Positions 30,203 to 36,330 of a stretch of 64,000 nucleotides of DNA are shown here, in pieces. A program made the position numbers and the translations under genes. The stretch comes from Synechococcus sp. WH 8020 (GTDB lineage: Bacteria; Cyanobacteriota; Cyanobacteriia; PCC-6307; Cyanobiaceae): assembly GCF_001040845.1 (NCBI RefSeq), contig NZ_CP011941.1, positions 1,249,676 to 1,313,675 on the forward strand. The letters run 5' to 3'. The notes under the pieces were generated by a model. That model saw only the letters and a program-made list of their open reading frames with translations, had not been told where the DNA came from and made no database searches. The first letter of the stretch is position 1, and each line of letters starts with the position of its first letter.

Positions 30203-31978
30203 TCAGTGAGCCTCCTGAACTACAGGATCGAGTGTGGACCCTACAACTTCTGCAGGAGATGTTTGAGTTCGATCTCGAATAGTCAAACAGGTATGGAGTA
30301 GGCCATCACAAACGAGATCGGAGTAACGATTGGAAATGGCAGAGTTAACTCTCTGACAATCTGAAATCGCTCGTTCGCGCGCACCAGGCACGGAGCTTGA
30401 ATAATCAAAACGGATCACAACGGGAATCGGCAAATCACGTGAAACGTTTAAGCCTTTAAAGATTTTCACACCAACATCCAAATCAGGTGCCCCTTCTTCA
30501 ACAGTATCTAGGTGGGCAAAATATGTAAGATTTCGCAAATGGACTTCTTTAAAACCAATACCTACACCAATAAAACGCTCTGCATGACCGGCATCGGGAT
30601 AAGGACCATCATGAAGATCGGATACGTAATCAATCTGAGAAATATTGTTAGCCATTAAGCGCGTAATCAAGGAGACCATTCCCGAATCCATCGTTCCAGG
30701 CGCACCAGATTCAACAGCTTCAGCGATCTGAATTAATGCCTGATCAGGAGACATGGTGGACGTTGCCTGATAAAGATCTTGAGCTGACACCCATCGATCT
30801 AACTGAGTTGAACTGTCGCTTGCGGGTGGATGAACCCTGATCGCATCAGTATCGGTATCGAGTCCAATCAACAACAAATCAACGGAAGCACCACAACAAA
30901 AGCTGTTCTCAACAGCTTGTCTGAAATCAAGAAGGCGCTGATATCCAGCTGAGGCTGCCAATTTGTCATCACTTCCGTGGGCAGCGCAGCCCTGATGGCT
31001 GGGGTCCAAGGAACTGAAGTGATAGGTCACGACCTTGAGATAACGGGTGTCTTGACTAGCCGCGTTAGGGATGGACTCGCGATAACGCCGGTGTTCTGTT
31101 TTGACCCATCTGTTGACCGTATTTTCGACGTCAAACAAGGCACCGGCATGGGAGCGACGACGCACTGAGCTGAACGGAATCCGTAAGGCGTAAGCAATGG
31201 AATGAGCCAGCCGACCATCAGCACAAGGCGTCACATCGAGGAGATGGAAGCCACAATCGAGAAGAAAGCGTTCAAACGTTTGCGCCGCTTCACTGCCTGA
31301 AGAGGCAGCGAGAGGATCGCTCTGAAAAAAGCAATCACTAAAGACACGATGCGACTCAAAAACACACCACGCGTAGAGCGCCCTCATATCTAATGGGCGA
31401 ACCCAGGCACGCTCAAGAATGTGCTTGGGTAAGTCAAATCCAAGTTCACGTCGGGCTAACAGCTGAGCTTGATCTATAAAGTCAGCTTGATGTTGAAGTG
31501 CTGAAATCTTTTGAAGGACCGGAACAATCCTTTCGAAGCGACCCTTAACTTCCAGTTCATAGGACCGTAAATGGTCATTAGCAACTGAATCCGTTAAGGG
31601 ATGCAGGCGATTAAATGCTGGACGGTTGGATGTTGAACGGTTGGATGTTGAACGCTTCGAACTGCTTGACAGTGCACTTGAAGACTTTTGATCGCGACGG
31701 ACCCAGCCTGGCTGTTGCGGCACTGAACGCCGACTGTCTTGGCTTGTCCTGACGCGACCGGCACCAAGCGTGCCTTGAGTCAAGACAGCAGCCTTGCCCG
31801 ATGTGGTGAGCGCACGCCGTCTTTGAAGAGAGGCATCACGGGCCGAGAGCGGATTGGAATCAGCTTGCTTGGGCTCAGCGGGAGACAAAGAATCAGCTCT
31901 CTCTTGTTGCAGCTGACGTCGAGTGGGAGCGGAGGGAGACAGAGGTCGCCCGCCGCGGGAAGGCACAGAGCGGACCAT
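30203..31978 (-). CDS. csoSCA: Carboxysomal carbonic anhydrase CsoSCA (CsoS3)
   Basis: 591 residues. Residues 1-125 are a Ser/Arg-rich disordered region containing a CsoS2-like repeat (about 46-66, with QRRRALTTSGKAAV). The catalytic domain has the Zn ligands C252, H320 and C331 and the D254/R256 dyad (CADGR), as in the epsilon class of carbonic anhydrase. The remainder contains the degenerate second half of the beta-CA duplication. Inside the shell it converts bicarbonate to CO2 next to RuBisCO. It is 7 bases after csoS2, two bases before csoS4A. A 15-base tandem repeat lies in the disordered coding region at 31624-31653. Confidence 0.95.
   Translation of the reverse strand: MVRSVPSRGGRPLSPSAPTRRQLQQERADSLSPAEPKQADSNPLSARDASLQRRRALTTSGKAAVLTQGTLGAGRVRTSQDSRRSVPQQPGWVRRDQKSSSALSSSSKRSTSNRSTSNRPAFNRLHPLTDSVANDHLRSYELEVKGRFERIVPVLQKISALQHQADFIDQAQLLARRELGFDLPKHILERAWVRPLDMRALYAWCVFESHRVFSDCFFQSDPLAASSGSEAAQTFERFLLDCGFHLLDVTPCADGRLAHSIAYALRIPFSSVRRRSHAGALFDVENTVNRWVKTEHRRYRESIPNAASQDTRYLKVVTYHFSSLDPSHQGCAAHGSDDKLAASAGYQRLLDFRQAVENSFCCGASVDLLLIGLDTDTDAIRVHPPASDSSTQLDRWVSAQDLYQATSTMSPDQALIQIAEAVESGAPGTMDSGMVSLITRLMANNISQIDYVSDLHDGPYPDAGHAERFIGVGIGFKEVHLRNLTYFAHLDTVEEGAPDLDVGVKIFKGLNVSRDLPIPVVIRFDYSSSVPGARERAISDCQRVNSAISNRYSDLVCDGLLHTCLTIRDRTQTSPAEVVGSTLDPVVQEAH
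31624..31653 (-). repeat. Two tandem 15-base units within csoSCA
   Basis: The unit GGTTGGATGTTGAAC (+ strand) occurs twice in a row, encoding a repeated five-residue Arg/Ser/Thr/Asn stretch in the disordered N-terminus. A third, diverged unit abuts. It is a likely slippage site that keeps the frame. Confidence 0.85.
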
Positions 31979-31985
31979 CAGTCGA

Positions 31986-34373
31986 TCAGCCCCTTGCTCC
32001 GCCTGAGACGGTAATCAGGGAACCCTTTGAAGTGTTGCCACTGGAACCCGTCACGCGACTTTCTGGCCATTCAGACTGCTCGTTGCGCTTTCGTTCGAAT
32101 GGGGGCATGGCACCCATCGCGCCAGAGCGGCTGGGATTACGACGACGAGCAGAGACTCCTTCCGTACCGGTCACGTGATCACCACGATCCCAGTCATCAC
32201 CAGTCACTTTTGTGGACGATCCTTCTCCAGTGACCCTGGAAGCAGGTTCTTCAGTTGCGACTTCAACCTCAGGAGTCGTGGGTTGAAATTGACGTCGGGG
32301 TTGCGTTTGGAACTGACGATCTTGAAATTCGCGATTATCGAATCGGAATTGCTCAGTGCCGGTGATTTTGCCACCGGCCAAATCAAAAGGGCCGGTTATG
32401 CGGCTGCTGTCTTCGTAAGAGGTGCCGGTGACCCCTTTGCTGGATTCCCGTTGTTGCTGAGCGGCACGGGCAGGAGAAACCACACTGAATCGAGTCCAAC
32501 TTGATCCTTCAGCAGATTGACCATGGGTCTCGGTTCCCGCTGGTGCTGCTTCACCACATGCCGCTGAAAGTTGATCAGCACCAATATATGGAGTTCCAGT
32601 CACCGCTTCACAGGCACCACGTTCGGCACCAGTCATGACGCCACCAATACCTGGTTGAAGTCCAGTCATTGGAGCGGCAGGCGTGCCAGGACGGACCGGC
32701 GTCCGCTCGCGAATGGCTTGAACAGCGGAGTTACCGCAATATTGACCAGCTTGCTCAAGACCTGCGTAAGGGGTTCCCGTGACAGCCTTACAACTTCCCG
32801 GTTCATCACCCGTGACGTTTTCAGAGCGACCGGTGCGCGTGCCGCTCACCACTTGGTTGCGATTGGTGATACTGAATCCAACTTTGGCGGCTTCAGGATC
32901 GGGCTTGGCTCCACAAAAAGAGTTGACCTGTTCAGAACTGATGTACTGATCACCAGTCACGCGATGACAGGATCCGAATTCATCACCGGTGACACTTGAG
33001 GAGCGGCCTACCATCGTGCCTGTAACACCTGTGCCAGATAGGGTTTCAGACAGACCAACCTTGGCAGCCGGACGTCCTTCGGGAAGGGGGTCTGACCCTA
33101 AATATTGATCACCGGTCAAAGAGCGGTTCGCACCAGCTTCATCACCAGTCACGCTCGAGGATCGCCCCACCATCACTCCACTTACAGGTCTGCCTTGCTG
33201 AGTCAGGCTGTGGCCAACTTTGCGAGGAGAAGGGGTCGTTCCACCGCAATAGGCGGCGCTTTGGTTGGCCGAAATATATTCCGTACCTGTCACGCTTTTG
33301 CAGGTGCCGGGCTCATCTCCAGTGACTTTCTCAGAGCGACCAACTTCGTTGCCTGTGACGCGATTGCCATGGGAAGTAGCAGATACACGAACCTTGGCAG
33401 GTGTGGTTGGAGTCGGAGCGCTCTGACAGAAGGTCTGAAAGACCTCTGCACCGAGATACTCAGTACCAGTGATGGAACGACAAGTGCTGGCTTCGTTGCC
33501 TGTCGTCTTAACGGAGCGATTGGCTTGAGTGCCAGTCACAGTTTGGCCACCGGTGGTCTCCGACTCACCCACCTTCCAGTGCGCATCGGCGGCAGCGGCT
33601 TGCTTGGATCCGTTCCGATTCGGGCCTGTTGGACGCGTCACTCCAGCGCTTTGCTTGCTACGAGCTCCTGATTTCGCACGAAGCTCACGTACTTGCTGAG
33701 CCAGCTCACGGCTGGTGAGGTCAGGATTCGCCTGACGGGCCACTGCAGCGGCGCTTGTGGGTTGTTTTCCTGCTGTTTTCCCGTGTTTAGACATCGCTTC
33801 ACGACGGGCTAAAACAAGTGCTCTACTTGGATTTTCGATGGCACGACGCTTTGGAGCTTGGCTGCGACGGGAGGAATTTTTGGTCGAAAGATCCACAGAG
33901 ACAGCCTGACGAGTCAAACGAGTTGGTGTTTGAACAGCGCCATTGCCGCCACAACCACACTCTTTCTTGCCGACCGCAGGGGCTGTAGTGGTTGTTGTTG
34001 TCGCTGTTTGACGAGCGACCTCAGCCCGGTTTCTGTCTTTGGTTGTATCTGCTGATTTACCACGACGTGACAAGGCTTCTCGGCGCGCGAGCACAAGCTC
34101 ACGACTCGGTTGACTGACGGGTTTCACCCGAGAGCGATGGGCACCTGATGAAGTTGACAGCGATTGATTTCTTGGTCGCTCAGTAGCGACAGGGGGTGCG
34201 GCGTGTGAAGGGGCTACCGCAATTGGATCTGCGTTGGTGCGCGTTTTGCGGGCATCGTCGGCCGACCGAACGCGATTCGCACCTGCTGAAACAACAACGG
34301 ATGCCTTTTTGCCAGCAGTAGTGAGAGCCTTACGGCGTTCGAGTGCTAGTTCGCGACTAGAAAGTCTTGCCAT
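31986..34373 (-). CDS. csoS2: Carboxysome scaffold protein CsoS2
   Basis: 795 residues, disordered and repetitive. The N-terminal region has four RuBisCO-binding repeats at about residues 4-23, 89-108, 182-201 and 220-239 (pattern SRELxLxRRxALxxxGKxA). The middle region from residue 267 to about 600 has some six repeats built on VTGxE and VGRS motifs with paired cysteines, which contact the shell. The C-terminus ends with a conserved GSLITVSGGARG. CsoS2 condenses RuBisCO and links it to the shell during carboxysome assembly. The frame is uninterrupted and I see no programmed-frameshift truncation of the kind described in proteobacterial CsoS2. Confidence 0.95.
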   Translation of the reverse strand: MARLSSRELALERRKALTTAGKKASVVVSAGANRVRSADDARKTRTNADPIAVAPSHAAPPVATERPRNQSLSTSSGAHRSRVKPVSQPSRELVLARREALSRRGKSADTTKDRNRAEVARQTATTTTTTAPAVGKKECGCGGNGAVQTPTRLTRQAVSVDLSTKNSSRRSQAPKRRAIENPSRALVLARREAMSKHGKTAGKQPTSAAAVARQANPDLTSRELAQQVRELRAKSGARSKQSAGVTRPTGPNRNGSKQAAAADAHWKVGESETTGGQTVTGTQANRSVKTTGNEASTCRSITGTEYLGAEVFQTFCQSAPTPTTPAKVRVSATSHGNRVTGNEVGRSEKVTGDEPGTCKSVTGTEYISANQSAAYCGGTTPSPRKVGHSLTQQGRPVSGVMVGRSSSVTGDEAGANRSLTGDQYLGSDPLPEGRPAAKVGLSETLSGTGVTGTMVGRSSSVTGDEFGSCHRVTGDQYISSEQVNSFCGAKPDPEAAKVGFSITNRNQVVSGTRTGRSENVTGDEPGSCKAVTGTPYAGLEQAGQYCGNSAVQAIRERTPVRPGTPAAPMTGLQPGIGGVMTGAERGACEAVTGTPYIGADQLSAACGEAAPAGTETHGQSAEGSSWTRFSVVSPARAAQQQRESSKGVTGTSYEDSSRITGPFDLAGGKITGTEQFRFDNREFQDRQFQTQPRRQFQPTTPEVEVATEEPASRVTGEGSSTKVTGDDWDRGDHVTGTEGVSARRRNPSRSGAMGAMPPFERKRNEQSEWPESRVTGSSGNTSKGSLITVSGGARG

Positions 34374-34472: not shown

Positions 34473-34814
34473 TCAGCGTCCTTCGAAAACCACGAAACAG
34501 GCACCTTGGCCTTGGGTATATGCGTCGTAGCCGACCATGCGCACGTGATGGTCGGGGTATGCGCGATGGCAGGCCTCGAGTTCACTCACTACAACGTTCA
34601 AATCCTTCTCACCGAAAAACGGGAGCTTCCAATAGGACCAGTAAGAGGCCATGGAATTGGAAGGATGGACGTGCTCAATGAGCGGGCTCCAACCTTGGGC
34701 AATGATGTAGGCGATCTGGTCATAGATCTCGTCCTGGGTCATCGGCGGAAGAAAGCCGAATGTCTCCAGGGTGGCGACTGTTTGGTAGTCACCCACGGTG
34801 CTCTGAAAAGGCAT
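34473..34814 (-). CDS. cbbS: RuBisCO small subunit, Form IA
   Basis: 113 residues from ATG 34814 (MPFQSTVGDYQ), the usual start for the alpha-cyanobacterial protein. The conserved beta-strand and helix ETFGFLPPMTQDEIYDQ and the central YWSYWKLPFFG are unmistakable. Eight copies cap the large-subunit octamer. It lies 103 bases after cbbL, with a hairpin between, and is followed by a stem-loop before csoS2. Confidence 0.97.
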   Translation of the reverse strand: MPFQSTVGDYQTVATLETFGFLPPMTQDEIYDQIAYIIAQGWSPLIEHVHPSNSMASYWSYWKLPFFGEKDLNVVVSELEACHRAYPDHHVRMVGYDAYTQGQGACFVVFEGR

Positions 34815-34917: not shown

Positions 34918-36330
34918 TCACTGAACGTCGAGTTTGTCGACGGTGTCGAATTCGAACTTGATCTCCTTCCAGGTCTCGAGAGCGATCGCCAGCTCAGGGC
35001 TGTGCTTACCGGCTTCCATAAGGATGTCGCGGCTTTCCTTCTCGATTTCACGACCGGCGTTGCGTGCCTTGACGCAGGCCTCGAGGGCCACACGGTTGGC
35101 AGCAGCACCAGCTGCGGAACCCCAGGGGTGACCGTGGGTACCACCACCGAACTGGAGAACGGAGTCATCTCCGAAGATGGCAACCAGCGCGGGCATGTGC
35201 CACACGTGGATACCGCCGGAAGCAACGGCAAACACACCAGGCATGGAACCCCAGTCCTGATCGAAGAAGTTGCCGCGGCTGCGATCTTCAGGAACGAAGG
35301 ATTCGCGGAGTTGGTCGATATAGCCGAGGGTGGTCTGACGATCACCTTCCAGCTTGCCGACCACGGTGCCGGTGTGGAGTTGGTCACCACCTGACAAACG
35401 CAGACACTTGGCGAGGACGCGGAAGTGAATACCGTGCTTGGGATGACGGTCAATCACAGCGTGCATCGCACGGTGAATGTGCAGCAACATGCCGTTCTTG
35501 CGGCACCACTTCGACAAACCAGTGTTAGCTGTAAAGCCACCGGTGATGAAGTCGTGCATGATGATCGGCTGATTGAGTTCCTTGGCGAACTCAGCACGCT
35601 CATACATCTCTTCAGGAGTATTCGCGGTCACGTTGAGGTAGTGACCCTTTCGCTCTCCCGTTTCCTGTTCGGCCAGCTTGATGGCTTCTGCAACAAATTC
35701 GAAGCGGTTCTGCCAACGCTGGAACGGCTGGGAATTGATGTTCTCGTCGTCTTTGGTGAAGTCCAGACCGCCACGGAGGCATTCATAGACAACACGGCCA
35801 TAGTTCTTACCGCTTAAGCCAAGCTTTGGCTTAATGGTGCAACCCAGAAGAGGGCGGCCATATTTGTTCATCCGGTCGCGCTCAACGGCGATGCCGTTTG
35901 GTGGACCAGCGCAGCACTTAATGAAGGCGATCGGGAAGCGAATGTCTTCCAGACGGAGATGACGCAGTGCTTTGAAGCCAAACACGTTGCCGACCAATGA
36001 GGTCAGAACGTTGGTGATTGAACCCTCTTCGAACAGGTCGAGGGGGTAAGCGATGAAGGCATAGAAGGACTCCTTGTCACCAGGGACGTCTTCGATGCGA
36101 TAGCAGCGGCCTTTGTAGAAGTCGAGGTCGGTGAGGAGCTCGGACCACACAGTGGACCAGGTACCAGTTGAAGATTCAGCGGCAACAGCAGCTGCAACTT
36201 CTTCTTTAGGGACACCTTCTTGGCCGGTGCACTTGAAGCAGGCCAGCAGGTCGGTGTCTAGGGGAACGTAATCGGGAGTCCAGTAAGTGTCTCTGTACTC
36301 CTTGACCCCAGCGTCGTACTTCTTGCTCAT
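34918..36330 (-). CDS. cbbL: RuBisCO large subunit, Form IA
   Basis: 470 residues. The catalytic lysine motif [10 protein letters not shown], the carbamylated lysine in [14 protein letters not shown], and the loop-6 region with [17 protein letters not shown] are intact. The sequence is Form IA, as expected for alpha-cyanobacteria. It catalyses CO2 fixation inside the carboxysome. The gene follows csoS1 by 68 bases. No C-terminal extension of the red type is seen, which matters for the CbbX question. Confidence 0.98.

Follow-up and report, generated by a model that had tools for sequence, protein, structure and literature searches.

A module of the first CsoS2 repeat in the tail of the carboxysomal carbonic anhydrase of marine Synechococcus

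There is no settled account of how the alpha-carboxysomes of cyanobacteria take up CsoSCA, the carboxysomal carbonic anhydrase. The CsoSCA tail of H. neapolitanus attaches to Rubisco in a groove for which it competes with the scaffold CsoS2, using a different motif, and the same paper found no consensus tail motif for cyanobacterial CsoSCA (PMC10614612). A module in the CsoSCA tail of Synechococcus sp. WH 8020, which resembles the first N-terminal repeat (R1) of CsoS2, bears on this problem. Is this stretch a repeat of the scaffold, how did it come to lie in the enzyme, and what might it bind? The locus was analysed within a window, that is, the whole stretch of 64,000 nucleotides of this genome. 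The literature covered consists of passages of PMC10614612, PMC12918739, PMC12646314, PMC4499774, PMC11086599, PMC9477826, PMC13249358 and PMC13370225.

The R1-like module in the CsoSCA tail

In the window, the cso genes are encoded on the minus strand, cbbL coming first and cbbS, csoS2 and csoSCA following (Table 1), and window CsoS2 starts with MARLSSRELALERRKALTTAGKKA. By Pfam, the carrier of the single repeat is CsoSCA, with all three domains (N-terminal, catalytic and C-terminal) above cut-off; it does not unite several N-repeats and a middle region in one chain, as a whole CsoS2 does. Its repeat has the R1-type core R-x5-RR-x6-GK, a strict pattern that occurs once in window CsoSCA and three times in window CsoS2. 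The likeness extends beyond this motif, the CsoSCA segment GAGRVRTSQDSRR pairing with GANRVRSADDARK of CsoS2. In an alignment of 34 CsoSCA copies, module positions R3, R9, R10, A12, L13, G17, K18, A20, R31 and R33 are invariant.

The original prediction, that a CsoS2-type repeat lies inside CsoSCA, is confirmed for the minus strand; reading the plus strand over the interval gives an unrelated translation. The interval given for it, 31781-31843, does encode CsoSCA residues 46-66, but the sequence quoted with it is that of residues 45-64, off by one residue. Likewise, the predicted resemblance to the first CsoS2 repeat was found over the 20-residue core, but its extent had been drawn too short and the RVR..D.R flank overlooked. 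An AlphaFold2 model, a weak hint because confidence in the tail is low, places one helix at residues 20-29 and another, that of the core, at 46-59. The tail before the folded part is poorly conserved, with varying linkers, and is predicted to be disordered (pLDDT mostly <50 at residues 1-122).

Table 1. Features of the cso locus in the window
Feature	Coordinates	Strand	Description	Basis
csoSCA	30203..31978	minus	carboxysomal carbonic anhydrase, 591 aa	Pfam CsoSCA_N 126-218, CsoSCA_cat 235-465, CsoSCA_C 466-582
csoS2	31986..34373	minus	carboxysome scaffold, 795 aa, directly upstream of csoSCA	Pfam CsoS2_M, 740.9 bits
cbbL	34918..36330	minus	Rubisco large subunit, presumed partner	
cbbS	34473..34814	minus	Rubisco small subunit, presumed partner	internal ATG start assumed; listed frame begins 34823
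CsoS2 R1 module	34242..34361	minus	source repeat, CsoS2 residues 5-44	pattern, profile, tree
CsoS2 R1 core	34302-34361	minus	SSRELALERRKALTTAGKKA	strict pattern
CsoS2 R2 core	34056..34103	minus	RELVLARREALSRRGK	strict pattern
CsoS2 R3 core	33777..33824	minus	RALVLARREAMSKHGK	strict pattern
Whole copied module	31727..31846	minus	CsoSCA residues 45-84: core, spacer and RVR flank	hhalign with CsoS2 R1
R1-like core of the module	31787..31846	minus	CsoSCA residues 45-64, SARDASLQRRRALTTSGKAA	pattern, alignment of 34 copies
RVR flank	31727..31759	minus	CsoSCA residues 74-84, GRVRTSQDSRR	invariant R31 and R33; kept alone in L163
P.APTRR-type tail motif	31907..31936	minus	CsoSCA residues 15-24, PSAPTRRQLQ, older candidate anchor	tail comparison

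Candidate binding to Rubisco

The explanation considered likely is that about 40 residues of CsoS2 R1 were copied into the CsoSCA tail and kept by selection, there to serve most probably as an anchor in the Rubisco groove beside the P.APTRR motif. In this model, an ancestor of two marine Synechococcus genera would have acquired a helical core and the RVR flank in the disordered tail of the neighbouring protein, and the copied piece would have been retained through selection on the protein. As judged from sequence, its most likely function is to bind the groove that CsoS2 uses, between two CbbL and one CbbS, in the manner of CsoS2 and, we infer, in competition with it. Because the older P.APTRR motif was kept alongside the module, each tail would offer two candidate anchors; since CsoSCA is reported to be hexameric (PMC11086599, PMC12646314), the hexamer would offer up to twelve. 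A P.AP.[R/K] motif, in strict or loose form, is present in all 57 CsoSCA found to bear the module. A single motif per CsoSCA tail is assumed in one paper (PMC11086599). The sequence PTAPx[R/K]R has been named as a possible binding motif, present in 87% (PMC10614612); its strict form occurs here in 114 of the 179 distinct tails, below the published figure.

The residues needed for such contacts are present. The CsoS2 N-peptide of H. neapolitanus is seen on Rubisco in 6UEW (PMC10614612); the peptide of that entry, GRDLARARREALSQQGKAA, was found with R2 as query, and by eye its R, RR and GK residues line up with those of the CsoSCA module. Among 188 CbbL sequences from redundant loci, the contact residues D99 and S345 occur in 188, F346 in 187 and G362 in 184, and position 72 (H. 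neapolitanus numbering) is Phe in 187. The CbbS Tyr matching Y96 is found in 209 of 209 rows, also from redundant loci. Since R, RR and GK do not vary and Rubisco has the partner residues, apart from a Phe in place of Tyr at CbbL 72, the earlier suggestion that CsoSCA and CsoS2 share a binding site on Rubisco is plausible.

That suggestion had leaned on Rubisco binding by the tail of a proteobacterial CsoSCA, which is indeed reported for H. neapolitanus, at the CsoS2 site, but through another motif (PMC10614612). The peptide concerned, PRLDLIEQA, resembles the module in belonging to the disordered tail of the same enzyme and in the groove proposed for it; however, it is an unrelated motif and is bound differently, by backbone hydrogen bonds (PMC10614612). 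By eye, no PRLDLIEQA element is found in the window CsoSCA tail. The occupation of the groove by another motif in H. neapolitanus is one counterpoint to the proposed model, and a second is that binding to CsoS1A also brings the H. neapolitanus enzyme into minishells (PMC12646314). The latter result favours an alternative in which the module binds shell proteins (CsoS1, CsoS1D) instead of, or besides, Rubisco and so helps to fix CsoSCA to the inner shell. Peptide arrays in which the CsoS2 N-region bound CsoS1, CsoS1D and Rubisco, mostly at the N-repeats, point the same way (PMC4499774). However, the N-peptide in 6UEW sits on Rubisco, and the shell contacts have been termed nonspecific, without a defined peptide (Ng 2025), so that anchoring to the shell is considered unlikely.

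A Rubisco-binding repeat of the scaffold itself has here moved into a cargo enzyme and persisted across most of two genera, and the module may serve as a natural tag for directing enzymes into alpha-carboxysomes. Close relatives that have lost just the module provide a natural test. A more tentative extension, possible though doubtful, is that with two Rubisco motifs per tail the hexamer would cross-link Rubisco as CsoS2 does and compete for its site, and that this shared code would help to set the packing of the carbonic anhydrase.

A separate observation concerns CbbL. In H. neapolitanus, CbbL Y72 contacts both peptides and is termed conserved in alpha-carboxysome Rubisco (PMC10614612); the equivalent in the window is residue 71 of CbbL (34918-36330). 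With Phe at this position, the ring for Arg stacking stays but the hydroxyl that bonds R23 of HnCsoSCA is gone. Consequently, CsoS2-type motifs may be favoured in alpha-cyanobacteria.

Distribution, descent from R1 and conservation

Of 31 genomes in the window's own genus (g1), 29 have PF08936, as do 356 of the 400 searched from the family Cyanobiaceae. A search of these 400 genomes with a profile of the module gave at least 57 matches whose frames have the length of CsoSCA (589-646 aa, E up to 6.9e-16); all of those listed belong to two genera, g1 with 26 and a second one, g5, with 31. Apart from a 582-aa frame in genome G286, on a contig other than that of its CsoSCA, the remaining matches listed (E from 6.9e-12) are in CsoS2-sized frames (765-866 aa). 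The matches listed reach E 4.1e-9, and weaker copies elsewhere could go unseen. CsoSCA is present in 62 genomes of the two genera (29 and 33), two of which (G020 and G338) were left out for truncated frames; the module is found in 57 of the 60 assessable proteins, and the core is absent from those of G003, G018 and G186 (loci L091, L093 and L163). When 179 distinct CsoSCA frames were read directly, 57 had the motif and 122 did not. Three of the latter are from g1 or g5; in the 119 others, which come from elsewhere (the named loci among them carry no genus code), a search with the CsoSCA profile yields no hit below E 1.

By record title, the motif is present in 19 of 26 Synechococcus, 0 of 25 Prochlorococcus, 0 of 11 Cyanobium and 0 of 4 Vulcanococcus loci, and in 55 of a further 154 loci, all these counts being of redundant loci. 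It is the titles of the 19 bearers that identify the two genera as marine Synechococcus. The genome searches covered the genus and the family, and the contig scan at least 80 loci, all with cyanobacterial titles. A random distribution of the motif among related proteins, named in advance as grounds for rejecting the idea, was not seen in the genomes, the profiles or the enzyme tree. CsoS2-like pieces were also considered in the tails of other lineages, where a few low-complexity tails gave local z values of 2 to 4; by profile, the best E values among motif-lacking tails except L163 were 0.076 (R1 profile) and 4.0 (CsoSCA profile).

A CsoS2 motif in "a handful" of Prochlorococcus CsoSCA has been mentioned in one sentence, with the suggestion of an evolutionary relationship (Blikstad et al. 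2023, PMC10614612). That bare motif of some cyanobacterial CsoSCA is the one seen here; however, its bearers are ascribed there to Prochlorococcus, whereas here a longer R1 module is found in two genera of marine Synechococcus and in none of the 25 Prochlorococcus-titled loci. The naming of genomes or bins may explain this discrepancy. Already known are the repeats of CsoS2, the complex of CsoSCA with Rubisco and the occurrence of the bare motif in some CsoSCA. The passages covered of the papers listed at the outset gave no description of the flank, the origin from R1, the distribution in marine Synechococcus, the losses or the presence of two motifs per tail.

The module is homologous to CsoS2 R1. 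Alignment by hhalign of 34 CsoSCA modules with 34 R1 modules covers 39 columns (probability 98.5, E 3.5e-15). In the module's own genome (2.66 Mb, 46 candidates scored), a module search found CsoSCA (8e-22) and CsoS2 (8.4e-11) and no third match at E up to 10. The 44-residue window module, compared with all PDB chains, matched three sequences, all CsoS2 and individually weak (E 0.018 to 0.22). A tree was built from 443 distinct modules (147 R1, 113 R2, 132 R3 and 51 CsoSCA; R2 and R3 were told apart by a crude rule). The CsoSCA copies group together in it as a single clade (support 1.0), nested in a larger one that comprises every R1 and CsoSCA module and excludes R2 and R3 (0.987). The CsoSCA clade adjoins the R1 modules of g1 and g5, with weak support (0.574), and for all 51 copies the nearest non-CsoSCA module is an R1 of these genera. 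Both profile and tree therefore indicate common descent with the CsoS2 repeats. The module shares with these repeats, and above all with R1, the R-x5-RR-x6-GK core and the RVR..D.R flank, and it falls inside the R1 clade; CsoSCA, however, has one copy in an enzyme tail, whereas CsoS2 has three or four in a scaffold, and the CsoSCA chain is without the shell-binding middle and C-terminal regions.

An R1-like motif might instead have evolved independently in the tail, both proteins binding one groove. In H. neapolitanus, CsoSCA and CsoS2 use the same Rubisco site with unrelated motifs (PMC10614612), which suggests that the site invites new motifs. However, convergence is very improbable, because the flank also matches R1 and the copies form one clade inside R1 rather than being equally near to R1, R2 and R3: the core has 13.2 identities in 20 to R1 of g1 and g5 and about 9 to R2 and R3.

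Descent from R1 leaves the question of when the module was gained. On a tree of 178 CsoSCA catalytic regions (tail excluded), its presence and absence take 3 changes, as against a mean of 48.5 for shuffled data (0 of 500 as low). L091 and L093 sit within one group of bearers (20 rows at 99) and L163 within another (3 rows at 95); the base of the whole bearer group has an SH-aLRT of only 35. In L163 the core is gone and GGGRVRSAGDQR is retained (profile E 6e-8), while in L091 and L093 RRQLQQ joins PAWVRR or PAWIRR directly. Counts of changes alone cannot separate gain from loss; the single module clade and the flank remnant in L163 fit one ancient copying and two later losses.

The claim of a copied repeat is therefore upheld, the module being homologous to R1 and of single origin, though the copy is ancient. 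Of the 60 bases and 20 codons in the cores of window CsoSCA and R1, 31 and 2, respectively, are identical. Over the genomes compared, 721 core positions have the same residue in CsoSCA and in the R1 of one genome; the codon is identical at 227 of these, with 232.5 expected, and the R1 of the same genome is no nearer than that of other genomes (13.1 versus 13.2 of 20 identities, n=55). On these grounds, both a recent copying event and gene conversion that is still under way are rejected. With codons randomised and core residues conserved, the copy is old and held at the level of the protein. Across 56 bearers, the mean frequency of the major residue is 0.88 for residues 13-23, 0.34 for 24-44, 0.84 for the core (45-64), 0.70 for 74-84, 0.47 for 97-122 and 0.87 for 190-560. 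In 123 pairs, pN/pS is 0.15 for the core, 0.20 for the flank, 0.02 for P.APTRRQLQ, 0.47 for linker 25-44 and 0.04 for the catalytic part; it is low also for linker 96-122 (0.11), and thus is not decisive alone.

It might be argued that the copied piece is a relic, a functionless spacer. Two lineages have lost the core, which is consequently not indispensable, and P.APTRR remains in all three CsoSCA without it. However, this reading has little to commend it, since the residues that define R1 are invariant in 34 diverged copies whose codons are randomised, while the preceding linker varies freely.

The bare pattern is only moderately specific: it arises in 23 of 20,000 shuffles of the 125-residue CsoSCA tail and is present in one other, unrelated frame (46106, plus strand) among the 167 window open frames of at least 100 aa. 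Weight is therefore placed on the wider module match and the profiles. Aligned locally, the tail and CsoS2 reach a score of 94, which none of 2,000 shuffles attains (mean 52.1, maximum 89, Gumbel p ~3e-4). When each bearer was aligned plainly with the CsoS2 of its own genome, R1 was the matching part in most, with 0 of 200 shuffles as high; the exceptions are L018, L098, L101 and L103, with weak best alignments nearer R2 (2, 3, 2 and 10 of 200 shuffles as high). The R1 profile matches all 57 distinct bearers, these four included (worst E 1.6e-4). The whole module is thus beyond chance, and a fortuitous resemblance of an Arg- and Ala-rich tail, for which the unrelated frame could be cited, is dismissed on the shuffles, the profile matches, the own-genome search and the conservation across the lineage.

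Further elements of tails and repeats

An RVR element lies about 12 residues past GK not only in window R1 (34242-34361) but also, as GRVR, after R2 of H. neapolitanus CsoS2. The unit repeated in the CsoS2 N-region may therefore extend beyond the 16-residue motif.

Other islands are found in CsoSCA tails. QPGWVRR, at CsoSCA residues 89-95 (31694-31714), is a further conserved one and is present in near form in all three CsoSCA lacking the core. FNLSRSSLP occurs in the tails of many relatives and is absent from window CsoSCA. The freshwater loci L049, L050, L068, L110 and L111 have in common the tail segment SKVLRQRELA(N/S)A.R ... R(V/I)RPVATQVV, for which profiles gave no clear tie to CsoS2 repeats and which is perhaps a lineage-specific anchor. 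Finally, the CsoSCA tail of L162 contains NGRPQAPSRRQLRQNQDRS, with the P.AP motif; this element is duplicated and flanks the R1-like module on both sides, a second sign that these tails are modular.
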